Positions 995 to 34,607 of a stretch of DNA of 43,085 nucleotides are shown one piece after another. The first letter of the stretch is position 1; the number at the start of each line of letters is the position of its first letter. The stretch is from assembly GCA_003136655.1 (NCBI GenBank), contig PLFC01000082.1:1-43085 (forward strand). Reading direction: 5' to 3'. This stretch comes from Vulcanimicrobiota bacterium (lineage in GTDB: Bacteria > Vulcanimicrobiota > Vulcanimicrobiia > Vulcanimicrobiales > Vulcanimicrobiaceae). The position numbers and the translations under genes are program-made. The notes under the pieces are model-generated. The model worked only from the letters and a program-made list of their open reading frames with translations. It had not been told where the DNA came from and made no database searches.

Positions 995-3900
995 CTAGCG
1001 GCCGTGCTCGCCCGCAGACTCTTGCGTGCCGTAGGTTTTGCCGTCGGGGTAGACGCTGAGGCGCCAGCCGCTAAGCGCGCGGATCGCATCGTCGCCTGTT
1101 CCGCCGCCCGGGGTCTCGTCGTCCTCGCTGACGGCGGCGGGCGGGATGCCCGAACTCTTGGAGAGCGCGGCGAAGCGCTTGGCGACGGCGTCGAGTTGAG
1201 CGCTCAGGACGTCGATCCGTTTCACCTGATAGGCTGCGGGCGCGCCCTCCCAGGAGGCGATCGAGCCGTAGAGATCGTCGGTGTATTCGCGCAGGCGCTC
1301 CTCGCCGGTGATCGCGCCGCCTTCCTTAGTTGCGACGATCTCTTTGCGGAGCGCCTCGGCCTTGGCCGCGACGTCGGGCAGATGCTTCGCGTCCGCCGCG
1401 TCGCGCAGCGCGTTGATCTGGTCGACGAGGTTCGTCATCCGGCCGAAGAGCGCGCTGACCCGTTCGGCTGCGGCGAAGTTCGCCGCGCGGTCGGCGGCGC
1501 TAAACGTCGCGCGGCGATCGCGCACGATGACGAGTGTGGTCGTGTAGACCTTCCCGGCTTTGGTCATGCGCACGGTGTAGGTGCCGGGCAGCAAGCGCGG
1601 CCCTTGCGAGGAATTGAACGCGACCTGCGCGGCCGGCGGCACGCGGGGCGGCGCCGCGCGCATCGACCAGTAGACGCGATTGATGCCCGGACGCTTCGAA
1701 GCCGGCAGCGTGTCGACCACGTGCCCCTTGGCGTCGAGCACTTCGAGTTTCAACTTGCCGAAGATCGCGCGCGTGGGCTGATAATACGTGATGACCGCGC
1801 CGTCCTTGGGATTCTCGCCCACGAACTTCGCGTCGCCTCCGGGCCAACCGCCGCCGGCCTGAATGCGCTGCTGGATGGGGCGTCCGCCCAGGAAGACGAA
1901 CTCACTGGCCAGCACGCTCGCGCTGAGCTTGCGTAGGGGCGTGATGTCGTCGACGATCCAGATGCCTCGTCCGTGCGTGGCCAGCACGAGGTCGGAGTCG
2001 CGCGGTTGGATGGTCAAGTCGTCGACGGGCACGCTCGGGAAATCGCCGCCCTTGAAGGCCGCCCAGCGGCGCCCGCCGTCGACGGAGATCCATAGGCCGA
2101 ACTCGGTGCCCGCGAAGAGCAACCGCGGCTGCTGCGTATCTTCTTTGATCACGTGCGCAAAGCCGCGCACGCCTTGGCTTGGGCCCACGATGCGCGCCCA
2201 CGTTTTGCCGAAGTCGGTCGTGCGATAGATGTAGGGATCGAAGTCGCCGAACGTGTGCCTGTCGAATGCGGCGTATGCCGTGCCCGCCGAAAAGCGGCTC
2301 GCCTCGACCCACGAAACCCACGAATTGCGCGGCAGGCCCGGCACGTTCTTGATCGTGTTGGTCCAGGTCTTGCCGCCGTCGCGCGTGATCTGCAGATTGC
2401 CGTCGTCGGTGCCGGCCCAAATCTCGCCCGTCGCCACGGGCGATTCGCTGATCGTAAAGATCGTGGTGTGCGTTTCGGCCGCAGAGTTGTCGATGGTGAT
2501 GCCGCCCGACTCTTCTTGTAATTGCTTCTGCGGGTCGTTGGTCGTGAGATCGGGCGAGATGCGCTGCCAGGTTTGGCCGTGGTCGCGCGAGCGGAACAGA
2601 TACTGGCTGCCGATGTAGATCGTGCCCTTCTCGTGCGGGCTCGTGGTCAGCGGCGTGTTCCAATTGAAGCGCAGCTTCTCGGTCGTGTCGGATTTGGGCT
2701 GGATGTCGCGCGACTCGAGCGTGTGCCGGTTGATGCGCGCCACCGAGCCGCCCTGCGTTTCGGCATACATGTAATTTTCCGGATCGGCAGGGTCGGGAAA
2801 GGCGAAGAAGCCGTCTCCGCCGAGCACGCTCTCCCAGCGGCTGTAGCTGACGCCGCCCGGATAGGCGCTGTCGCCCACCCAGTTGGTGTTGTCTTGCAGG
2901 CCGCCGTAGACTTGGTACGGGTCCTTCGCGTCGACGGCGACGTGGTAGAACTGGCCGATCGGCAAGTTGTCGCCCTTGACCCAGGTATTCGCGCCGTCGT
3001 AACTGATCCATAGGCCGCCGTCGTCGCCGGTCACCACGTGCTGCGTATCGCTCGGATCGATCCAGACGTCGTGATGGTCGCCGTGCGTGCCGCCGCTCGC
3101 GCTCGAGAAACTCTTGCCGCCGTCGTCGCTCGTGATGAGACCGAGGTCGGGTTTGAAGAGCCGGTTGGGATTCTTCGGGTCGACGATGATGTTGGCGAAG
3201 TAGAACGGACGCCAGACCATCAGCGTGCTGCGGTCGCGCTCCGACCAGGTCTTGCCGCCGTCATCCGAACGGAACAGCGCGCTGCGCGGGCTCTCGATGA
3301 AGGCGTAGACGATCTTGGAATCCGACGGCGCGATCGCGACTGCGATGCGGCCGTAGGGTCCGGCCGGCAAGCCGCTCGCGTTCGTCGCGTCGAGCTTCGT
3401 CCAGGTTGCGCCCGCGTCGCTCGTCGTATAAAGGCCGCTACCCGAGGGCGCCGTCGCGCTGTCCCCGCCGGAGCGGAACGTCCAGCCCTTGCGCCGGAAA
3501 TCCCACAGGCCGGCGAAGAGCCGATCGGGATTGGCCGCATCGAGTGCGAGCGACGAACAGCCCGTCGAGAGATTCGGACCCTTGAGGATCAGCGTCCAGG
3601 TCGAGCCGCCGTCGGTGGTCTTGTACACGCCGCGATCGGGCGAGTCGCTCCACAGCCGTCCCGTCGCGCAGGCGTAGACGACGTTGGAATTGCGCGGGTC
3701 GACGATGATCTTCGCGATGCGCTCGCTATTCGGCAAACCGGCATCGGTCCACGAATCGCCGCCGTCGGTCGTCTTGTAGATGCCGTCGCCGACGGAGACC
3801 GAGTTGCGCGTCCACGATTCGCCCGTGCCGGCCCAATACGTGTCGGGGTGATTGGGATCGAAGGCCAGCGCCCCGATCGACTGCACCGGCTCCTTATCGA

Positions 3901-4168
3901 AGATGGGCCGGAAGGTCGTGCCGCCGTCGGTCGATTTCCACACGCCACCCGAAGCCGCACCGACGAGCAGCGTCGTCTTGCCCGAGGCTTCGTGACGGCC
4001 GACGATCGCAGCGATGCGGCCCGAGACCACGGCCGGGCCGATGTTGCGCGCGCCGAGGCCGGAGATCGTGCCGGAATCGTAGCGCGGTTCGTCGGCGGCG
4101 GCCGCGCCGCAGGCGAGCAGCACGGCGGCGAGGGCGAGCGACGTGGTGAGCGAGCGCGTGCGCGACAT
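995..4168 (-). CDS. Secreted BNR/Asp-box beta-propeller protein (VPS10/sortilin-like, glycosyl hydrolase-type)
   Basis: A 1057-residue exported protein built of BNR/Asp-box repeats. I count about eleven Asp-boxes of the type S/T-x-D-x-G-x-T-W/F (for example STDGGTTF, TTDGGDSW, SDDGGKTW, TRDGGKTW, TTDFGKTW), spread over roughly residues 50-750. This is the pattern of the VPS10/sortilin-like 'glycosyl hydrolase' propellers common in soil bacteria. The last 250 or so residues lack Asp-boxes and are partly helical. The N-terminus is a Sec signal (MSRTRSLTTSLALAAVLLACG), and the VLLAC could instead be a lipobox. The frame stays open further upstream to 4624, but that part overlaps the lolA-like gene and looks like its shadow. 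The ATG at 4168 lies 2 bases after that gene's stop, so the two form an operon. No catalytic residues can be assigned. Confidence 0.85.
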   Translation of the reverse strand: MSRTRSLTTSLALAAVLLACGAAAADEPRYDSGTISGLGARNIGPAVVSGRIAAIVGRHEASGKTTLLVGAASGGVWKSTDGGTTFRPIFDKEPVQSIGALAFDPNHPDTYWAGTGESWTRNSVSVGDGIYKTTDGGDSWTDAGLPNSERIAKIIVDPRNSNVVYACATGRLWSDSPDRGVYKTTDGGSTWTLILKGPNLSTGCSSLALDAANPDRLFAGLWDFRRKGWTFRSGGDSATAPSGSGLYTTSDAGATWTKLDATNASGLPAGPYGRIAVAIAPSDSKIVYAFIESPRSALFRSDDGGKTWSERDRSTLMVWRPFYFANIIVDPKNPNRLFKPDLGLITSDDGGKSFSSASGGTHGDHHDVWIDPSDTQHVVTGDDGGLWISYDGANTWVKGDNLPIGQFYHVAVDAKDPYQVYGGLQDNTNWVGDSAYPGGVSYSRWESVLGGDGFFAFPDPADPENYMYAETQGGSVARINRHTLESRDIQPKSDTTEKLRFNWNTPLTTSPHEKGTIYIGSQYLFRSRDHGQTWQRISPDLTTNDPQKQLQEESGGITIDNSAAETHTTIFTISESPVATGEIWAGTDDGNLQITRDGGKTWTNTIKNVPGLPRNSWVSWVEASRFSAGTAYAAFDRHTFGDFDPYIYRTTDFGKTWARIVGPSQGVRGFAHVIKEDTQQPRLLFAGTEFGLWISVDGGRRWAAFKGGDFPSVPVDDLTIQPRDSDLVLATHGRGIWIVDDITPLRKLSASVLASEFVFLGGRPIQQRIQAGGGWPGGDAKFVGENPKDGAVITYYQPTRAIFGKLKLEVLDAKGHVVDTLPASKRPGINRVYWSMRAAPPRVPPAAQVAFNSSQGPRLLPGTYTVRMTKAGKVYTTTLVIVRDRRATFSAADRAANFAAAERVSALFGRMTNLVDQINALRDAADAKHLPDVAAKAEALRKEIVATKEGGAITGEERLREYTDDLYGSIASWEGAPAAYQVKRIDVLSAQLDAVAKRFAALSKSSGIPPAAVSEDDETPGGGTGDDAIRALSGWRLSVYPDGKTYGTQESAGEHGR

Positions 4169-10143: not shown

Positions 10144-11604
10144 TCACGAGACGGCCACCGCGGCCGGATATTTGAACTGCGCGGGTGCCGGCGAATAAGC
10201 GAACTTATCGCCGAGCGCCTCGACCGCCGCCGCGCCGCCGGCCGCTTCGAGCAGCTCTCCCTGATGTGCCTTGGCCTGCCGGTCGATCGCGTCGGGGTCG
10301 CCGATGTCGCGCAGCTTCGCCTCGCAACGCGCGAGAATAGCTGCGTACGCCGGCTCGCGCGCGAGGTCGTGCAGTTCGCCCGGATCGGCGGCGAGGTCGA
10401 ACAACTGCGGCGCGTAGCCCGCGTAATAGACGAACTTGTACGGGCCGTCTCTCAGCATGAACATGCCCGTGATCGAACCCATCGCGTGGTATTCGCCGAA
10501 GATCGGGCGCACGTCGGCGCGCTTGCCGCGTGCGAAAGGCAGCAACGACGCGCCGCGCAGATCCGCTTCGTCGGGCGCGGCGGGTAGCTGCAGGGCGTCG
10601 GTGATCGTGGGATACACGTCGACGAGCGACACGGGTGCGTCGACCACCGCGCCCGCGGGCACGCCCGGGCCGGCCAGGATCAGCGGAACGGCCGCCGAGC
10701 CTTCGTACATCGTGTACTTCCACCACAGGCCGTGCTCGCCGATCTGGTCGCCGTGATCGCTCGTATACAGGATCAGCGTATCGTCCGCGCAGCCGCTCGC
10801 CTCGAGCGCGTCCAGCACCATGCCGATGCGGTCGTCCATGAAGGTGCACAATGCATAGTATGCGCCGATGGCGCGGCGCAGCGTCGCCTCGTCGAACTCG
10901 TCGGCCACGTCGAAGGCGACGCGCAACGCGTCGAGCACGGGATGATGCGGCCGTTCGCCGAGCGCGTACTGTTTGGGCAAGATCACGCTCTCCGGCGGAT
11001 ACATGTCGATGTAGCGCTGCGGTGCGATCAACGGAAAGTGCGGCGCCACGAACGAGACGAAGGCGACCCAGGGCTGCGAGCCGGGCGCCTCGTCGCGCAG
11101 GAACGCCACGGCCTCATCGGCGATCGCGTTGTCGTAGCGGTTGTATTCGCTCTCGCCCGCTCCGACGTCGATCAGCTTCGTTCGCGCGATGCGGCGCAGC
11201 GGCTGCGGTTCGCGCAAGAGGTTGCCGCGCAGGTCGCCCACGCCGTCGACGACGTGCATCGGAATGCGCCGCTCGGCGAAGCCCGTGTCGTCCTCTTCCG
11301 CGCGATAGTGCAGCTTCCCGATCGAGAGCGTGCGGTAGCCGGCCTCGCTCGCGCGGTGCGCCCAACTGCGCGGCGTGCCGAGATACGGCGAGGTGTTGTC
11401 CCACGAGCCGATATCGTGCGGGTAGCGGCCGGCGGCGAAGCTCGAGCGCGAGGGCACGCAGATCGGCGACGCGCAGTAGGCATTGGTGAAGCGCGTGCCG
11501 CGTGCGGCCAGCGCGTCGAGGTGCGGCGTGCGCACGACGGGATGGCCGTAGGCGCCCATCGCGTCGCGGGCGTGTTCGTCGGCCATCAAAACGAGAACGT
11601 TCAT
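10144..11604 (-). CDS. Sulfatase (alkaline phosphatase superfamily, Cys-type formylglycine)
   Basis: Hydrolyses an organic sulfate ester. The 486-residue protein opens directly with NVLVLMADEHARDAMGAYG, so it has no signal peptide and should be cytoplasmic. The formylglycine signature C-x-P-S-R is CVPSR with Cys at residue 49, and a second motif GR follows. Metal-binding acidic residues are at the N-terminus (D9) and in YTSDHGDQIGEHG. Overall it resembles choline-sulfatase-like and related small-molecule sulfatases more than exported glycan sulfatases. The frame stays open upstream to 11910 across the dctP gene, but homology begins at the ATG at 11604. It is the last gene of a GntR-dctP-sulfatase unit (8-base gap). 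The formylglycine-generating enzyme is not in this window. The substrate is unknown. Confidence 0.9.
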   Translation of the reverse strand: MNVLVLMADEHARDAMGAYGHPVVRTPHLDALAARGTRFTNAYCASPICVPSRSSFAAGRYPHDIGSWDNTSPYLGTPRSWAHRASEAGYRTLSIGKLHYRAEEDDTGFAERRIPMHVVDGVGDLRGNLLREPQPLRRIARTKLIDVGAGESEYNRYDNAIADEAVAFLRDEAPGSQPWVAFVSFVAPHFPLIAPQRYIDMYPPESVILPKQYALGERPHHPVLDALRVAFDVADEFDEATLRRAIGAYYALCTFMDDRIGMVLDALEASGCADDTLILYTSDHGDQIGEHGLWWKYTMYEGSAAVPLILAGPGVPAGAVVDAPVSLVDVYPTITDALQLPAAPDEADLRGASLLPFARGKRADVRPIFGEYHAMGSITGMFMLRDGPYKFVYYAGYAPQLFDLAADPGELHDLAREPAYAAILARCEAKLRDIGDPDAIDRQAKAHQGELLEAAGGAAAVEALGDKFAYSPAPAQFKYPAAVAVS

Positions 11605-11612
11605 CGTTGCGT

Positions 11613-12629
11613 CTACCCCAGTGTTCCGGTGTATTTTTCGAGTGCCCGCCAGCCCGCGTCGCCGAACGTCTTGCGCCACTGCGCGTAGAATCCGGCCTCC
11701 TCGAGCTTTTTGCGGAAGGGCGCGTGGTCGGGTTTGTTGACGACCATGCCGTGAGCGATGAGCCGGGCCGGCGCCGCGGCTTCGACCTTGGCCACGTCGT
11801 CGCGTTGCTTCGCGGCGCACTCCGCGCCGAGGCGGATCACCGTATCGCGCACCTTCTTGTCCAAGCCGTTCCAGGCGTCGGGGTTGATCACGATCCAGTA
11901 GCCGCCCCACATTTGGTTGGTGAGCGACGCATACTTCTGCACTTCGTAGAACTTTTCGTATTCGACCACGGCGAGCGGATCGGTCACGCCGTCGACGAGT
12001 TTGGTTTGCAGCGCCGTGTAGGTTTCGTTGAGGTTGATCGGCGTCGGCGAAGCGCCCAGCGACTGAAACGTCGAGACGAAGATCGGGCTCGCCGACGTGC
12101 GGATCTTCAAGCCGGCGAAATCACCGGGCGCGTCGATCGGCCGCGCGTTGTTGTAGACCTGGTTGAACCCGTTGTTCCAGATCGCGGGCAAGGGTATGAG
12201 TCCGGCGTGCTCGATGCCCGCGCGAATGAACGCCCCGACCTCGCCGTCGAGCGCGCGCCAAACCGTCTTGTAGTCGTGAAAGGCGTATCCGACGTAGGTG
12301 ATCGAGGCCTGCGGTGCGACCGTCGCCAGGATGCCGCCCGGGCCGGCGTACATCTGGATTGCGTTGGAGCGCACCTGCGTGATCATCTGCGTATCGCCGC
12401 CGAGCGCGCTCGACGGGAAGACGGTGATGTCGAGCGCACCGCCGGTTTCGCGGCGCACGGCGTCGGCGAATTCGCGCAGGCGCACGTGCAGCGGGTGCTC
12501 GGGATAGAGGTCGTGGCCGAACTTGAACGTCGTCGCTGCGGCGCGAACGCCGCGCGGCAGAATCGCGATCGAAGCGAACGTTGCGGCTGAAGCGGCGATG
12601 AGCGAGCGCCGCGATGAAATGCTGGACAC
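11613..12629 (-). CDS. TRAP transporter solute-binding protein (DctP family)
   Basis: Periplasmic receptor that captures an organic anion for a TRAP transporter. The 338-residue protein starts with SSRRSLIAASAA, a Tat-like signal. DctP features follow: FKFGHDLYPEHPLHV, a middle PGDFAGLKIRTSASP (the family's G-x-K-I-R segment, whose Arg binds the carboxylate), and ETYTALQTKLVDGVTDPL. GTG start at 12629 with AGGAG 7 bases upstream. It lies between a GntR regulator (10-base gap) and a sulfatase (8-base gap), which suggests that the ligand is a sulfated or related acid. The membrane subunits DctQ and DctM are not adjacent or anywhere in the window, so the transporter must be completed from elsewhere. 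Confidence 0.92.
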   Translation of the reverse strand: MSSISSRRSLIAASAATFASIAILPRGVRAAATTFKFGHDLYPEHPLHVRLREFADAVRRETGGALDITVFPSSALGGDTQMITQVRSNAIQMYAGPGGILATVAPQASITYVGYAFHDYKTVWRALDGEVGAFIRAGIEHAGLIPLPAIWNNGFNQVYNNARPIDAPGDFAGLKIRTSASPIFVSTFQSLGASPTPINLNETYTALQTKLVDGVTDPLAVVEYEKFYEVQKYASLTNQMWGGYWIVINPDAWNGLDKKVRDTVIRLGAECAAKQRDDVAKVEAAAPARLIAHGMVVNKPDHAPFRKKLEEAGFYAQWRKTFGDAGWRALEKYTGTLG

Positions 12630-12639
12630 GGTGAAGCTC

Positions 12640-13437
12640 CTACTGCGTCCGGTGCGCAGGCGGCAGGTGATGAAAGCCGTCGCTCAGTTCGAACGGTCCG
12701 TGCATGCGCATCCCGAATTCGTATACGTCGGGACGCAGATACCACGAAGTGAATTCTAACCCGCAGCCGTCGGCCGCGGCGCTGGTGCGTTCGAACACGA
12801 GGATCGGTTCCGGTTCGAGCAGGTCCAAATAACGGGCGTGCTCGCCGGCGGTTTCCGCACGGAGTCTGACGTCGACGTTTTCGATGCGCCGTTTGACGAA
12901 GCGCTCGATCAACTGGACCGCCGTCGTTTGCTCCGCTTCGAGACGGGTCGCACGAACGGCGTCGGGATGGAGGTACGCGCGCGTCAACGCGACGGGGCGG
13001 CCGTCGAGCCGGAATTGACGCACGAGCAAGACGGCGGTTTCGTGACCGAGCCGAGCCGCCGCGGCGGGGTCGGGGGTCATCGTTCGAAACTCGAGCAGCC
13101 GCGGTTCGGGCCGCAGACCTTGATCGATCATCGCTTCGTAGAATGCGCCCAGCCGCGAAGGATCTTGGCGCACGCGCGGCCCGGCGACGAAGGTGCCGAC
13201 GCCGCGCCGCCGGAGCAGCAGACCGCGCCGTTCGAGCACGGCGATTGCGGCCCGCACCGTATCCCGGCTCACCCCGAACTGCCGCGCGAGCGCGGGCTCG
13301 GAGAGCAGCCGCTGCTGCGGCTCCAGCACGCGGTCGCGAATCTGCCGCGTCAGTTCGTCGGCGAGCTGGTGATAGCGCGCGTCGGTACCCTCAAAGAGCA
13401 CGGTACCGGCCCGGAAGCGGCGACATTCCCGGACCAT
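12640..13437 (-). CDS. GntR-family transcriptional regulator (HutC/FarR type with UTRA domain)
   Basis: A 265-residue one-component repressor or activator. The winged helix-turn-helix occupies about residues 20-90 (RYHQLADELTRQI, LLSEPALARQFGVSRDTVRAAI, GLLLRRRGVGTFV). A UTRA effector-binding domain fills residues about 105-255, with the typical start RLGAFYEAMIDQG and late LEFTSWYLRPDVYEF. It heads the unit with dctP and the sulfatase, so it probably senses their substrate. The ATG at 13437 has no obvious ribosome-binding site; an in-frame GTG about 12 codons in (before LFEGTD) is a credible alternative. A 19-base palindrome lies 26-44 bases upstream and is its best candidate operator. Confidence 0.92.
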   Translation of the reverse strand: MVRECRRFRAGTVLFEGTDARYHQLADELTRQIRDRVLEPQQRLLSEPALARQFGVSRDTVRAAIAVLERRGLLLRRRGVGTFVAGPRVRQDPSRLGAFYEAMIDQGLRPEPRLLEFRTMTPDPAAAARLGHETAVLLVRQFRLDGRPVALTRAYLHPDAVRATRLEAEQTTAVQLIERFVKRRIENVDVRLRAETAGEHARYLDLLEPEPILVFERTSAAADGCGLEFTSWYLRPDVYEFGMRMHGPFELSDGFHHLPPAHRTQ

Positions 13438-29072: not shown

Positions 29073-30881
29073 ATGAGTGCGGTTTCCGGGTTCGCTGCGC
29101 GCGGGTTGTGCGCGGTTTTGGTTTTCTCCGCGTGTGCCTCGTCCGGGCCGCCGGCGACTGCGGCGGTGGCGAGCGATCAACAAGTTCGCACCATCGCGGG
29201 TTCGGGGCGTCCGGGCTTTACCGACGGGCCGGCGCTGAGCGCCACGTTTCTCTTGCCGACCGCCATCGTGCGGGCCGCCGACGGCACGCTCTACGTGGCC
29301 GACGAGGCCGCGCAGCGCATTCGTGAAGTACGCCCCGACGGCTCGGTCACGACGATCGCGGGCTCCGGCGCGCTCGCGCCCGACGGCCTCTCGGTAAAGG
29401 GCGGCTTCGCCAACGGCAGCGCGCTCTCGGCCAAGTTCAGCCGTCCCAACGGCTTGGCCATCGGTCCCGGCGGTTCGCTGTATATCTCCGAACGTCTCAA
29501 CGCGTGCATCCGCAAACTCGACCACGGCGTCGTTTCCACGTTCGTGGGAAAGTGCGACGAGCGCGGAACCGCGGATGGTGCGCAGGCCGTGGCTCGCTTC
29601 AAGGATCCGCGCGCGCTCGTTTTCGACCGCGCGGGCGTGCTCTACGTCGCCGATTACGGCGTCGGCGTTCGCGTCGTTACGCCCGCCGGTGCGGTCTCGA
29701 CGCTCAAATTCAGATCGAGCGGCGCTCAGGAAGCGTGGGGCCTGACCATCGGCGGCGAACCCGCGGACCCCACGCTCGTCGTCTCGACCCCGCGCGAGAT
29801 CGACATCATGCATCTGCTGACGCACCAAGACCAGGTGATCGGCACGACGACCGGAGCCGAGGGCGACCGTATCTTCGGCAACGTCAATCAGCTCGTCGCG
29901 CTCGACCATCGCGAGTTTCTCTTCACCGACATCAAGGCGAGCAACATCCGCTATCTGCGCCTGCCGGTCGAACCGTTCGCCACGACCGTGTACACGCAAA
30001 CGATCGCCGGCGGCGAGGCCGAGCGCAACATCGACAATGCGGGCTATGCCAACGGCAGCCGAACGTCGGCGCGCTTCTTCGTGCCGCGCGGCATCGCCGA
30101 AGCGAACGGCAACGCGTACATCGCCGATGCCGGCAACCGGCGCATCCGCGAAGTGTCGCTGCCCCACTTCCGCGTGCCGGAGTCGGGCTTTGCCGACACC
30201 ACGCCCTACGATACCTCGCACTATCAGATCCTGTACATCGGCGCCTCGTGGGTCTTCTGGGACGCTCTCGGCGACGACTCGATCTGCGGGCGCCTCGAAT
30301 CCGAACTCGATGCCGCGCATCGCTTCGCCAAACCGGTGCGCTGCCACACCGTGCGCATGGACGCGGCGAGCCTGGGGCAGATGGAAGACTATCTCGACAA
30401 CTATCTACAAGGACACGTCGATCTGGTCGTCGTCAACGTAAATCTCTCGGAAGCGCGCTCGCTTTTCCCCAACAGCAATCCGCCTTCGAATGCGGCGGCA
30501 ATCGAGAAATTTCACGACAACATCGCCGCGCTGAAGCAGAAGTTGGCCAAGTCCGGCATCAAGTTGGTCCTCTTGTGGAATAACGCAGCCGACGACGTGT
30601 CGTCGTCGGAAAACTATTGGGAGCGCGAAGAGGGCGCGGGCAAGGTGGACTTGCCCGTCGATCTGAGCGACAGTTACACGCTGGCCACCCGGCCCATGAT
30701 CGAGTCGGTCGCAGCCCTGCCGGTTTTTGAAGTCGACACCTATCCCGATTTCCAACGTGCCGAGCGCGAACGAGACCCGGCCGTGCTCTTCGGTACCGGC
30801 GATAGCCACATGTCGCCCCGCGGCTCGGCCTACATCGCGCAGCTCCTGGCGCGCTACATCATCGGCGAGAAGAGTATCTAG
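29073..30881 (+). CDS. NHL-repeat beta-propeller fused to an SGNH-hydrolase-like domain (paralogue 1)
   Basis: A 602-residue secreted protein. The signal ends in VFSAC, a possible lipobox. About residues 30-375 hold NHL repeats of the type 'xDG-x-ALxA-F-P-L-G-LYVAD-NxxIR' (for example GTLYVADEAAQRIREV, GSLYISERLNACIRKL, NAYIADAGNRRIREV). From about residue 382 an SGNH-like domain begins: IGASWVFW (Ser 392, with Ala where GDS usually has Asp), LDLVVVNVNL-type strands, and a C-terminal D577-S-H579 in GDSHMSPRGSAY. That Ser/Asp/His set fits a hydrolase or acyl-transfer triad. The start at 29073 is chosen for the signal peptide; GTG 29040 is possible. It is the most diverged of the three tandem paralogues. 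Confidence 0.8.
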   Translation: MSAVSGFAARGLCAVLVFSACASSGPPATAAVASDQQVRTIAGSGRPGFTDGPALSATFLLPTAIVRAADGTLYVADEAAQRIREVRPDGSVTTIAGSGALAPDGLSVKGGFANGSALSAKFSRPNGLAIGPGGSLYISERLNACIRKLDHGVVSTFVGKCDERGTADGAQAVARFKDPRALVFDRAGVLYVADYGVGVRVVTPAGAVSTLKFRSSGAQEAWGLTIGGEPADPTLVVSTPREIDIMHLLTHQDQVIGTTTGAEGDRIFGNVNQLVALDHREFLFTDIKASNIRYLRLPVEPFATTVYTQTIAGGEAERNIDNAGYANGSRTSARFFVPRGIAEANGNAYIADAGNRRIREVSLPHFRVPESGFADTTPYDTSHYQILYIGASWVFWDALGDDSICGRLESELDAAHRFAKPVRCHTVRMDAASLGQMEDYLDNYLQGHVDLVVVNVNLSEARSLFPNSNPPSNAAAIEKFHDNIAALKQKLAKSGIKLVLLWNNAADDVSSSENYWEREEGAGKVDLPVDLSDSYTLATRPMIESVAALPVFEVDTYPDFQRAERERDPAVLFGTGDSHMSPRGSAYIAQLLARYIIGEKSI

Positions 30882-30921
30882 TGCCGCCTGCCGAATCGCC
30901 CTCCGGCTGAGTGCGACCCTT

Positions 30922-30926
30922 GGAGG
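30922..30926 (+). promoter_or_regulatory. Ribosome-binding site pointing to a non-standard ATC start
   Basis: GGAGG lies 7 bases before ATC at 30934, in the short gap between two NHL-SGNH genes. No ATG, GTG or TTG start in the correct frame follows before the lipoprotein signal, so this site supports ATC as the initiation codon. Confidence 0.5.
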
Positions 30927-30933
30927 CCCGTCG

Positions 30934-32760
30934 ATCAAAAATCTAGCTCCCGCGCTCCTTCTGTCGTTACTGACGGCCTGTTCGCACACGTCGAGCGCGC
31001 CCAACCCGGCGGATTCGCCCGGGGTGAGCGACGTGCCGGAGCCAATCGTCGCCACGCTCGCCGGCAACGGTCGCATGCGCGCCGACGACGGCGACGCTCT
31101 CGGCGCTGCATTTCTGTTTCCCTACGGTGTGGCCGTTGCGCCGGACGGCAGCGTCTACGTCAGCGACGCCGGCGCGCAAGCGATTCGACGCATCGCCGAC
31201 GGCAAGGTGACCTTCGTCGCCGGCAACGCGCCTTTGGGTGTTACGCCGCAGGCGCGTAAGGGCGGATACGTCGACGGCCCGGCGATGGCCGCAAGGTTCG
31301 TGTGGCCCACCGGCCTCGCGCTCGCGAAGGACGGCAGCCTCTTTATCGCCGACACGGGCAATCATTGCATCCGCCGCCTGCAGAACGGCGTCGTGACGAC
31401 GTACGCAGGCGCGCGCACGCCGGGCAACGCCGACGGCGAACGGCTCGAGGCGCGCTTTGCTTTGCCGCAAGGGCTGGCCCTCGACGACGACGGCAACCTC
31501 TACGTGGCCGACTTCGGTAACGGCATTCGCCGGATTACGCCCGCGGGCGTGGTCAGCACGCTCAAGCAGCTTCGGACCAAGCAAGGCCGCGTGCTCGGGA
31601 TCGACGCGAAGGGCGCGGGCCCGACGCTGCAGATTGCGTATACGGAGGACGACGCGCTGCACCTGTGGACGCCGGCCGGCGCGCAAGTCGTTCTCGCAAG
31701 CGCGAAGATCGAACCGGTCGAAGACGATCTGCACGCGGCGGGCAGCTTCTACGGCGTTACTATTTTAGGCCCAAAGGCCGTCGCCGTCACCGACGTGCTG
31801 CACAACGTCGTGCGCTTTATCCGGTTCGGCAGTAAGCCGTTTACGACTTGGCCCAATTCGCGCATCATCGCGGGCGCCGCACGTGAGGGCAACGGGGCTC
31901 CCGGCGGCTACGCCGACGGGCCGCCGCCGGCATCGCTGGTCGACATTCCCTTGGGCATCGCGCGCATGCCCGACGGCAATTTGGTGTTCACCGACGCCGG
32001 CAATCGTCGCGTTCGGACGATCTCCAACGTCGATCCGCGCGGTCCGGTCGGTCCCGACCTCAAAGGGTTATACGGACCTAAGGACGCCTATCGCATCACC
32101 GTAATCGGTGACTCTTTCACCTTTGCCAACGTGCTTTGGCAAGAATCGATCGCGGGCCGCATCGAAACGGCGCTCAAGGCCGCCAACGCCGCCGGCAAAC
32201 CGATCTTCGTCAGCACCGTCCGGCTCGACGGCGTGCCCATTTCCGGTCAGGCGAGTTTCATCAGCGAGCACCTGGGCGACGGGCAAACCGACTTGGTCGT
32301 CATGCTCATCGACGACATCACGCAGGCCCACGAGATGAATCGCCAGGATCTGAGAAACGGACGCTGGCGGACCGTGACGCCGGGACGATTGTTGGCGCTG
32401 CAACGCAGCCTCGACCAACGCGGCACGCACTTCATGATCGTCGTGATTCCGGCTGCGCGTTCGGTATCGCTGAACGAAGTGCCCGAGATCGGGGCGTTCA
32501 ACGACGGCCAGGTCACCGCAGTCTCGTTCGAACAGGACAACGACCGGGCGCGACAGATCGCCGACTTCTACCAGCGCGCCGGCGTGCATGCGCTGGTGCT
32601 CCTCGATTCCATGGAGAAGTTCGAGGCGACCGCGGGTCGCATCTCGCTCTACAACATGCGCGACATTCACCTCTCGCCGCAGGGGTCGTCGTTCGTCGGC
32701 GACCGCATCGCCGAGGAGATCGAGCGCTGGCAGCCCTGGTCGCCGAACGCGCTGCCATGA
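30934..32760 (+). CDS. NHL-repeat beta-propeller fused to an SGNH-hydrolase domain, lipoprotein (paralogue 2)
   Basis: A 608-residue predicted lipoprotein: KNLAPALLLSLLTACSH gives a lipobox LTAC, so it should be anchored at the cell envelope. Residues about 45-375 are NHL repeats (GSVYVSDAGAQAIRRI, GSLFIADTGNHCIRRL, GNLYVADFGNGIRRI, GNLVFTDAGNRRVRTI). The C-terminal domain is a recognisable SGNH hydrolase: VIGDSFTF with Ser 394, and D577-I-H579 in DIHLSPQG. No ATG/GTG/TTG is in frame near the signal peptide; the best start is ATC at 30934, exactly where the next paralogue has ATG. Earlier in-frame starts lie inside the preceding gene and give an unlikely N-terminus. The stop overlaps the next gene (ATGA). 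Confidence 0.85.
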   Translation: MKNLAPALLLSLLTACSHTSSAPNPADSPGVSDVPEPIVATLAGNGRMRADDGDALGAAFLFPYGVAVAPDGSVYVSDAGAQAIRRIADGKVTFVAGNAPLGVTPQARKGGYVDGPAMAARFVWPTGLALAKDGSLFIADTGNHCIRRLQNGVVTTYAGARTPGNADGERLEARFALPQGLALDDDGNLYVADFGNGIRRITPAGVVSTLKQLRTKQGRVLGIDAKGAGPTLQIAYTEDDALHLWTPAGAQVVLASAKIEPVEDDLHAAGSFYGVTILGPKAVAVTDVLHNVVRFIRFGSKPFTTWPNSRIIAGAAREGNGAPGGYADGPPPASLVDIPLGIARMPDGNLVFTDAGNRRVRTISNVDPRGPVGPDLKGLYGPKDAYRITVIGDSFTFANVLWQESIAGRIETALKAANAAGKPIFVSTVRLDGVPISGQASFISEHLGDGQTDLVVMLIDDITQAHEMNRQDLRNGRWRTVTPGRLLALQRSLDQRGTHFMIVVIPAARSVSLNEVPEIGAFNDGQVTAVSFEQDNDRARQIADFYQRAGVHALVLLDSMEKFEATAGRISLYNMRDIHLSPQGSSFVGDRIAEEIERWQPWSPNALP

Positions 32761-34607
32761 CGACGAATCTGCGCGCGCTTCTTCTCGCGCTGCTGCCGGC
32801 GGCGCTCGCCGCGTGTTCGCATGGGGCCGCACCGGCGCCCGATGCGAGCGCCTCGCGGGACATCGCGAACGTGCCCGAACCGTTCGTTGCGACCCTGGCG
32901 GGCAACGGTCGCATGCGCGCCGACGACGGCGACTATCCGGCTGCCGCGTTTCTTTTTCCGTACGGCGTTGCGGTCGCACCCGACGGCACGATCTACGTCA
33001 GTGACGCGGGCGCGCAGGCGATTCGGCGCTTGAAGAACGGCAAGGTCACGTTCGTGGCCGGCAACGCGCCGCTCGGCGTCACCGAACAGGCCCGGCACGG
33101 TGGTTATCTCGACGGGCCGGCGATGGGCGCGAGCTTCATCTGGCCCACCGGCTTGGCGCTGGCCAAAGACGGCAGCCTCTTCATCGCCGACACCGGCAAT
33201 CATTGCATACGCAAACTGCAAAACGGCTATGTGACGACCTTCGCGGGCTCCGACACGCCGGGCAGCCGCGACGGCGACCGCGGGGATGCGTCGTTTCTCT
33301 CGCCGCAAGGCCTGGCCTTCGACGCCGACGGCAACTTGTACGTGGCCGACTTCGGCAACGGCGTACGGCGCATCACACCGAAGGGCGCCGTTAGCACGCT
33401 GAAGTTTCTCCCCGCCAGACGGGGTCGCGTGCTCGCCATCGACGTCAAGGGAGCGGGGCGCGGGCTGACCATCGCCTATACCGAGGACGGCGCACTGCAT
33501 CTCTGGTCCGCGAACGGCGGACTGCAGACGATCGCCGCCGGCGATCCCATCGAACCGGTCGAAGACGGCCTCAACGCCGCGGGCAGTTTCTACGGCGTTG
33601 CGCTGCTCGGGCCGCACGCCGTCGCGGTGACCGACGTGCTGCACGACGTGGTACGCTTCGTACGCTTCAAGGATGGGCCCTATAGCAATTACATCACCTC
33701 GCGCATCATCGCCGGGCGTTCGCGCGAAGGCGACGGCGCGGTCGGCGGATTCGCCGACGGCTTCACGCCCGCGTCGCGCGTCAATATTCCGCTCGGCATC
33801 GCGCGCATGGCCGACGGCACGCTGATCTTCACCGACGCGGGCAACCGTCGCGTGCGCACGATCGCCGGCGTCGACCCGCGCGGACCGGTCGGGCCCGACC
33901 TCGCAGGTCTGAGCGGGCCGAAGGACACGTATCGCGTTGCGGTCGTCGGCGACTCGTTCGATTTTTGGGGCGTGCTCTGGCCCGAGTCGATCGCCGGCCG
34001 GATCGAAGCGGGGCTCAAAGCCGCGCGCTCGACGGTCGGCCGCGCGCCGTACGTGAGCACCGTGCGGCTCGACGGCACTTCCATCTCGCAGCAGTTGAGC
34101 TTCGTGCACGAAAATCTCGGCGACGGCCAGACAGATCTCGTCGTGCTCCTGATCGACGACATCACGCTCACCCACGAGTGGGGCGCCTCGGGCGGCGGCG
34201 ATTGGCAGAAGGTCGCCGCGCAACGCTTACGCGTTCTACAAAGCGATCTCGCCAAGCGCGGAACGCGCCTGCTCGTCGTGCTGATTCCGCCCGCGCGCGC
34301 GGTGTCGCTCAACGAAGTTCCGGAGATCGGAGCGTTCAACGACGGCCAGGTGACCGCGCTGGCCTTCGAACAGGACAACGATCGCGCGCACCAGGTCGTC
34401 AAGCAGTTTTCTGCGATCGGCGTGCCGGTGTTCGCGTTGCAACAACCGATGGAAGAGTTCGAGGCGTCGGCGAGCCGCGTGCCGCTCTACAACATGCGCG
34501 ACATCCACCTCTCGCCGCAGGGCGCGACCTTCGTGGGCGATGCGGTTGCGGGCGAGATCCTGCGTCGCAGGCTCTGGACGGCGAGCGGCGGTGCCTCGGG
34601 CTCATAG
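32757..34607 (+). CDS. NHL-repeat beta-propeller fused to an SGNH-hydrolase domain, lipoprotein (paralogue 3)
   Basis: A 616-residue predicted lipoprotein (MTTNLRALLLALLPAALAAC, lipobox LAAC). It is closely similar to the preceding gene along its whole length, including shared stretches such as LAGNGRMRADDGD, DTGNHCIR, SLNEVPEIGAFNDGQV and YNMRDIHLSPQG. The NHL propeller occupies about residues 45-385. The SGNH domain carries VVGDSFDF (Ser 400) and D582-I-H584. The ATG at 32757 overlaps the previous stop as ATGA, so the two are translationally coupled products of a recent duplication. Its substrate is unknown; SGNH enzymes deacylate or acylate sugars and lipids. It converges on pntB, with 84 bases between them showing no clear terminator. 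Confidence 0.9.
   Translation: MTTNLRALLLALLPAALAACSHGAAPAPDASASRDIANVPEPFVATLAGNGRMRADDGDYPAAAFLFPYGVAVAPDGTIYVSDAGAQAIRRLKNGKVTFVAGNAPLGVTEQARHGGYLDGPAMGASFIWPTGLALAKDGSLFIADTGNHCIRKLQNGYVTTFAGSDTPGSRDGDRGDASFLSPQGLAFDADGNLYVADFGNGVRRITPKGAVSTLKFLPARRGRVLAIDVKGAGRGLTIAYTEDGALHLWSANGGLQTIAAGDPIEPVEDGLNAAGSFYGVALLGPHAVAVTDVLHDVVRFVRFKDGPYSNYITSRIIAGRSREGDGAVGGFADGFTPASRVNIPLGIARMADGTLIFTDAGNRRVRTIAGVDPRGPVGPDLAGLSGPKDTYRVAVVGDSFDFWGVLWPESIAGRIEAGLKAARSTVGRAPYVSTVRLDGTSISQQLSFVHENLGDGQTDLVVLLIDDITLTHEWGASGGGDWQKVAAQRLRVLQSDLAKRGTRLLVVLIPPARAVSLNEVPEIGAFNDGQVTALAFEQDNDRAHQVVKQFSAIGVPVFALQQPMEEFEASASRVPLYNMRDIHLSPQGATFVGDAVAGEILRRRLWTASGGASGS

Follow-up and report, generated by a model that had tools for sequence, protein, structure and literature searches.

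The window analysed here is a 43,085-nucleotide contig (PLFC01000082.1) from a Vulcanimicrobiota genome (GenBank assembly GCA_003136655.1). Its positions 29073-34607 hold an array of three genes, A, B and C, each encoding an exported protein with an NHL-repeat propeller followed by a C-terminal SGNH domain (Table 1). It is likely that these are envelope proteins working at the outer end of a polymer O-acylation system of the MBOAT-SGNH kind, in a manner resembling AlgX. The phylum (Candidatus Eremiobacterota/Vulcanimicrobiota) is an obscure one, its first cultivated member having been reported only in 2022 (PMC9758169).

A reading of the window made from the sequence alone, hereafter the sequence-only reading, had described three adjacent exported genes with a clear lipobox in two of them, and the open reading frames, Pfam matches and signals bear this out. 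The stop codon of B overlaps the ATG of C as ATGA. No ATG, GTG or TTG lies between the end of A and the signal peptide of B (window 30907-30934), where the candidates are an ATC at 30934, behind GGAGG, and a CTG at 30907. The ATC is the probable start, with the CTG as the alternative, and the missing standard start reflects either a rare start codon or a sequence error.

Pfam detects NHL repeats in all three proteins (1.4e-11 in A, 4.1e-22 in B and 2.5e-21 in C), and NCBIfam gives partial matches to ScyD/ScyE-type propellers, under its cut-offs. AlphaFold2 models built on family alignments of 33 sequences reached a predicted local distance difference test (pLDDT) score of 89.6 and a predicted template modelling (pTM) score of 0.88 for A, and 86.7 and 0.87 for C. 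The strands listed from both models form a propeller of six blades, in which the first strand provides the closure, and then an alternating beta/alpha domain. Foldseek matches to the teneurin NHL propeller, the SOQ1 lumenal domain and TRIM71 confirm the propeller. The NHL repeats of the sequence-only reading therefore stand, and its count of four to six gives way to six blades.

The C-terminal domain matches the Pfam profile of the ALGX SGNH domain (PF16822) above the curated cut-off in C (2e-9) and B (2.8e-6) and under it in A (0.0036); the match in C spans only positions 29-134 of the 268 in the profile. A profile search of the PDB, with 28 SGNH domains of the family as query, gave as best matches AlgX (4knc, 2e-8; 7ula, 1e-6) and AlgJ (4o8v, 4e-6), followed by GDSL hydrolases; PatB matched weakly (E 0.48). 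The alignment to AlgX and AlgJ covers the D-x-H motif, and 19 of the 28 domains have an ALGX match in Pfam (E<=0.05). Because fold searches of the PDB and of viral libraries returned almost only propellers, with the SGNH domain absent among the best 50 matches listed, the identification of the SGNH domain relies on profile matches, secondary structure and conservation. The domain has the Gly-x-Ser of Block I, the Asp and His of Block V, a strand and helix order that fits the superfamily and SGNH enzymes as its PDB profile matches. In the models of A and C the serine sits at the end of the first strand of the beta/alpha domain and the D-x-H just ahead of the last helix. The profile matches support an SGNH fold, in which the C-terminal Ser, Asp and His picked out by the sequence-only reading are the predicted catalytic residues.

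Table 1. Coordinates of the array genes, their domains and predicted catalytic residues, and of the related core genes elsewhere in the genome (contig C34, region L140)
Feature	Position	Strand	Description
Gene A	29073..30881	+	Exported NHL propeller + SGNH, 602 residues; lipobox weak (FSAC)
Gene B	about 30934-32760	+	Lipoprotein signal LLTAC, NHL propeller + SGNH, about 608 residues
Gene C	32757..34607	+	Lipoprotein signal LAAC, NHL propeller + SGNH, 616 residues
C, six-bladed propeller	32883..33866	+	Residues about 43-370
C, AlgX-like SGNH domain	33912..34604	+	Residues 386-616
A, predicted catalytic Ser392 (GAS)	30246..30248	+	Asp577 at 30801, His579 at 30807
B, predicted catalytic Ser394 (GDS)	32113..32115	+	Asp577 at 32662, His579 at 32668
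C, predicted catalytic Ser400 (GDS)	33954..33956	+	Asp582 at 34500, His584 at 34506
Secreted orphan proteins of about 150 residues (C34)	L140:4482-5757		Orphan family found nowhere else in the window's genome
DltX-like microprotein (C34)	L140:7783-7986	-	Ends in FIYTDF; about 57-67 residues; lies immediately upstream of the SGNH and MBOAT genes; similar at 12 other loci of the phylum

Distribution, history and catalytic residues of the family

Twenty of the phylum's genomes, out of 149, have the SGNH domain of the NHL-SGNH family; G064 and G137, where the match is weak, are not counted among these carriers. A wider search, over 84,980 species genomes, started from a single NHL motif and retained the best 80 matches, and would overlook any fusion whose propeller differs in sequence. 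Among the matches listed, the full fusion occurs only in records bearing the name Candidatus Eremiobacterota or Vulcanimicrobiota, in one UBP12 record and in REEB354, which matches a genome (G105) of the same taxonomic family as the window. The matches in other phyla have NHL repeats only, with no SGNH domain of the NHL-SGNH kind. The window's genome holds ten copies: the three of the array, three in tandem on contig C10, and single copies on C57, C73, C118 and C137.

The sequence-only reading had taken the array for the triplication of one gene, which the tree rejects. B and C are 69% identical and mutual nearest relatives; the nearest relative of A is the paralog on C57 (57% identity), followed by those on C118 and C73. 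The array consequently combines two close duplicates (B and C) with a gene from another subclade (A). Lipidation, likewise, is not a trait of the family, most of whose members have a plain signal peptide.

Of 49 distinct members of the family, 42 have both Ser and His and seven have neither, and no member has only one of them. The Gly of the G-x-S motif is kept in 46 of the 49 and a Glu (Glu520 in C) in 45. On the maximum-likelihood tree the seven members without Ser and His represent four independent losses, or three when only strongly supported branches are counted, and so point to repeated joint loss rather than a single event. This pattern supports joint selection on the Ser/His pair. Members without the pair probably act as scaffolds or binders. 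They are also found in tandem with intact members (L048:4608-6548, L070:9311-11122, L077:7672-9396, L024:9128-11392 and L078:5674-7755).

The middle residue of G-x-S varies freely across the family, with GNS the commonest form, and relatives of gene A with GAS or GPS retain Gly, Ser and His. The proposal that A, with GAS in place of GDS, is a diverged copy of possibly altered activity was accordingly dropped, and GAS is rejected as a mark of an inactive copy.

Conservation is higher over the NHL part than over the SGNH part in every one of 1176 pairs (mean identity 40% vs 24%), and B and C are 75% identical over the former and 60% over the latter. This difference suggests a propeller with a constant partner and an enzyme with changing acceptors; a shared partner would account for it no less well than a variable ligand. 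It could also mean that the proteins work through the propeller, as binding, adhesion or signalling proteins, with the SGNH domain left as a residual scaffold, as the loss of Ser and His from some members might imply. Such a reading is quite unlikely, given that most members keep both residues despite the low identity of the surrounding domain, and that the losses are paired.

Linked MBOAT, SGNH, orphan and microprotein genes

When the neighbours of the NHL-SGNH genes were clustered, the most frequent was an MBOAT, followed by a secreted protein of about 150 residues and an anchored SGNH protein of about 335 residues with a weak match to DUF1574. Nineteen of the 33 MBOAT genes in the 20 carrier genomes lie <=8 kb from a family member, in 16 genomes, where 0.59 would be expected from genome size (Poisson 2e-22). 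In counts that treat related genomes as independent, an MBOAT is present in 19 of the 20 carriers vs 47 of the 129 other genomes (p 5e-7), and the protein of about 150 residues in 20 of 20 vs 2 of 129 (Fisher 7e-23). This protein, present in 22 of the 149 genomes, carries the motif GDALxxWDATP and has no match in Pfam or the PDB; we refer to it as the orphan protein. The linkage to MBOAT genes supports the role near surface-polymer acylation, as esterase or acyltransferase, that had been suggested for the array.

The DUF1574-like SGNH, MBOAT, orphan and NHL-SGNH genes lie on the same strand and are overlapping or closely spaced. The typical operon begins with a DltX-like microprotein (ending FIYTDF) and continues with the DUF1574-like SGNH protein, the MBOAT, the orphan protein and the NHL-SGNH genes. 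At L074 (genome G013), for example, the microprotein gene is followed by those for the SGNH protein, the MBOAT, the orphan protein and two NHL-SGNH proteins, and from the SGNH gene onward the intergenic distances are -4 to +34 bases. At some loci sugar-nucleotide and glycosyltransferase genes are present as well.

These last genes, and the neighbours of the window array, which are unrelated to acylation, would suit a different explanation, namely that the NHL-SGNH proteins are ordinary secreted lipases or esterases of nutrition that lie near MBOAT genes only through shared polysaccharide clusters. We consider this unlikely in view of the overlapping genes, the single order found in several genomes, the excess of MBOAT neighbours and the occurrence of the orphan protein in every carrier.

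In characterised MBOAT-SGNH systems the acyl group is carried by the Tyr of a C-terminal FXYXXF motif, located on the tail of the MBOAT or, in the Dlt system, on the microprotein DltX (PMC12148441). Many MBOATs of the present loci lack the tail motif, while others end in, for example, ..VVYRAF or ..FVYFKF. A six-frame search at nine loci for open reading frames ending in a relaxed form of FXYXXF revealed six microprotein genes, each directly upstream of the SGNH-MBOAT pair and encoding one hydrophobic helix followed by FIYTDF or FFYGNF. With 17 further regions included, all 13 distinct loci that have a tail-less MBOAT and for which upstream DNA is available have the microprotein, which is absent from all 13 loci with a motif-tailed MBOAT; these counts leave out tail-less MBOATs at contig edges (L064/L144, L076/L155 and L148). 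Every locus not cut by a contig edge has FXYXXF on either the MBOAT tail or an adjoining microprotein. A DNA pattern for FIYTDF followed by a stop codon matches ten times across the 149 genomes, each time at an MBOAT locus, and its reversed form, used as a control, has no match; the ten matches differ in synonymous codons, as coding sequence would. MBOAT pathways other than Dlt have been stated to be without a DltX-like microprotein (PMC12148441), and its apparent presence at these loci is contrary to that statement.

An FkbH-like protein, an acyl carrier protein or both are encoded near the MBOAT and NHL-SGNH genes at L052, L069, L070 and L072, in some cases beside motif-tailed MBOATs, and L070 has a glyoxalase-fold protein there too. 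It is possible that the FkbH-like and acyl carrier proteins provide a carrier-bound acyl donor. The acyl group at such loci may be a glyceroyl or similar unit.

The window's genome, which is 76% complete, has its core genes on the 9-kb contig C34, where a microprotein, an SGNH protein, an MBOAT and two orphan proteins are flanked on both sides by sugar-nucleotide-type genes (identified by eye from their sequences). An MBOAT machine adjoining the window array was looked for, and this arrangement was rejected, the machine being on that other contig. We infer that the array works with the core genes of C34, a link made through the family and its co-occurrence rather than through adjacency. A second MBOAT, on contig C84 (L011), is fused to an N-terminal SGNH-like part and ends in FVYFKF. 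In many genomes of the family one MBOAT likewise has a long open frame, of about 800-1080 residues, and usually lies apart from the NHL-SGNH genes.

Proposed role in envelope acylation

Many bacteria use MBOAT-SGNH systems to decorate their cell-wall and capsular polymers. At the loci described here the sequences themselves show the domains, the export signals, the joint loss of Ser and His, the gene neighbourhood, the co-occurrence and the microprotein motif; from these we infer an acyl flow, an order of steps, a substrate and a propeller partner as follows. The MBOAT would take an activated acyl group from the cytoplasm and load it onto a Tyr near the outer face of the membrane, in the microprotein or in its own C-terminal tail. 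The membrane-anchored DUF1574-like SGNH protein would take the group from the Tyr, and the NHL-SGNH proteins would act last, using Ser/Asp/His to pass it on to a surface polysaccharide or to modify it there. The propeller may hold the polymer itself or else a common partner, for which the orphan protein is a candidate, and the several paralogs per genome could serve several acceptors or sites. By analogy with alginate acetylation, the MBOAT would correspond to AlgI, the DUF1574-like SGNH protein to AlgJ, the NHL-SGNH proteins to AlgX and the orphan protein possibly to an AlgF-like accessory. The best reading of the sequences makes the NHL-SGNH proteins propeller-carrying terminal enzymes, presumably acyltransferases or esterases, between which sequence cannot decide.

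Several observations weigh against placing the array at the end of such a system. On the window's 43-kb contig no MBOAT, orphan protein or microprotein was found, and none of the ten family members of the genome lies on C34. Every complete core locus has an SGNH protein of its own, and the NHL-SGNH proteins may therefore be dispensable, or esterases. The Block III residue is most commonly Asn (30 of 49 members), as in ordinary SGNH hydrolases, where AlgX has Tyr; in B and C it is Asp. The Ser lies ahead of the D-x-H in all intact members, the canonical order, whereas AlgX and AlgJ are circularly permuted, with the order H-S-G-N and the D-x-H before the Ser (PMC9487903). Because of this order the proteins cannot formally be placed within the AlgX family, though they would be AlgX-like in their working.

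The Block III Asn, the canonical order and the separate SGNH protein of the core operon are also what would be seen if the NHL-SGNH proteins were surface esterases, removing the acyl groups placed by the MBOAT or trimming acylated polymers, rather than acyltransferases. We hold this possible but do not favour it. In the PDB it is the acyltransferases AlgX and AlgJ that match best, and these act as acetylesterases in vitro too (PMC9487903), so that the sequence features do not separate the two activities.

The proposed O-acylation system resembles several known ones. AlgX and AlgJ, which act with AlgI and AlgF, share the periplasmic SGNH domain with D-x-H and the MBOAT partner, and in AlgX, as here, the SGNH domain is joined to a binding domain; that domain is a CBM in AlgX and an NHL propeller here, no alginate operon was seen at these loci, and the paralogs are many. 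The Dlt system (DltB, DltX and DltD, the last an SGNH protein) shares the tail-less MBOAT, the separate one-helix microprotein ending FXYXXF and the anchored SGNH protein. It belongs to Gram-positives, whereas the present loci are those of Eremiobacterota, have an SGNH partner that matches DUF1574 and include the additional NHL-SGNH and orphan proteins. No DltA was seen beside the loci, and no genome-wide search for it was made. PatA/PatB, of peptidoglycan O-acetylation, is likewise an MBOAT-SGNH pair, and the second type of locus described here has the Tyr motif on the MBOAT tail, like PatA; PatB has no propeller and is one transferase, in contrast to an array. NHL propellers are the best structural matches, yet the other proteins that have them (teneurin, SOQ1, Vgb and ScyD/ScyE) are without an SGNH domain.

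The sequence-only reading knew of no described system with the NHL and SGNH layout, and none appeared in the literature searched, where no paper combined NHL repeat with SGNH hydrolase, or NHL repeat with SGNH and MBOAT. MBOAT-SGNH systems as such are known. The literature searched seems to contain no description of this architecture, of the orphan partner or of a DltX-like microprotein outside Dlt. There is, in our view, an even chance that the Eremiobacterota have an envelope-acylation system of their own. It would consist of an MBOAT working with a stand-alone DltX-type Tyr microprotein outside Dlt, an anchored DUF1574-like SGNH protein, a secreted orphan protein and an expanded set of terminal propeller-SGNH enzymes, ten of them in the window's genome and some in the family presumably catalytically dead, by which the acyl group would reach several acceptors. 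The loci would then bring together an enzyme architecture that is new, an orphan partner and naturally dead variants. Proteins that annotation would label just "NHL repeat-containing" are given a putative function, and the system becomes testable.

Elsewhere in the window, positions 995-4168 of the minus strand encode a large protein with Sortilin/Vps10 and BNR repeats, another protein of propeller type. Genes for a sulfatase, a DctP solute-binding protein and a GntR regulator lie in a row at 10144-13437, also on the minus strand.

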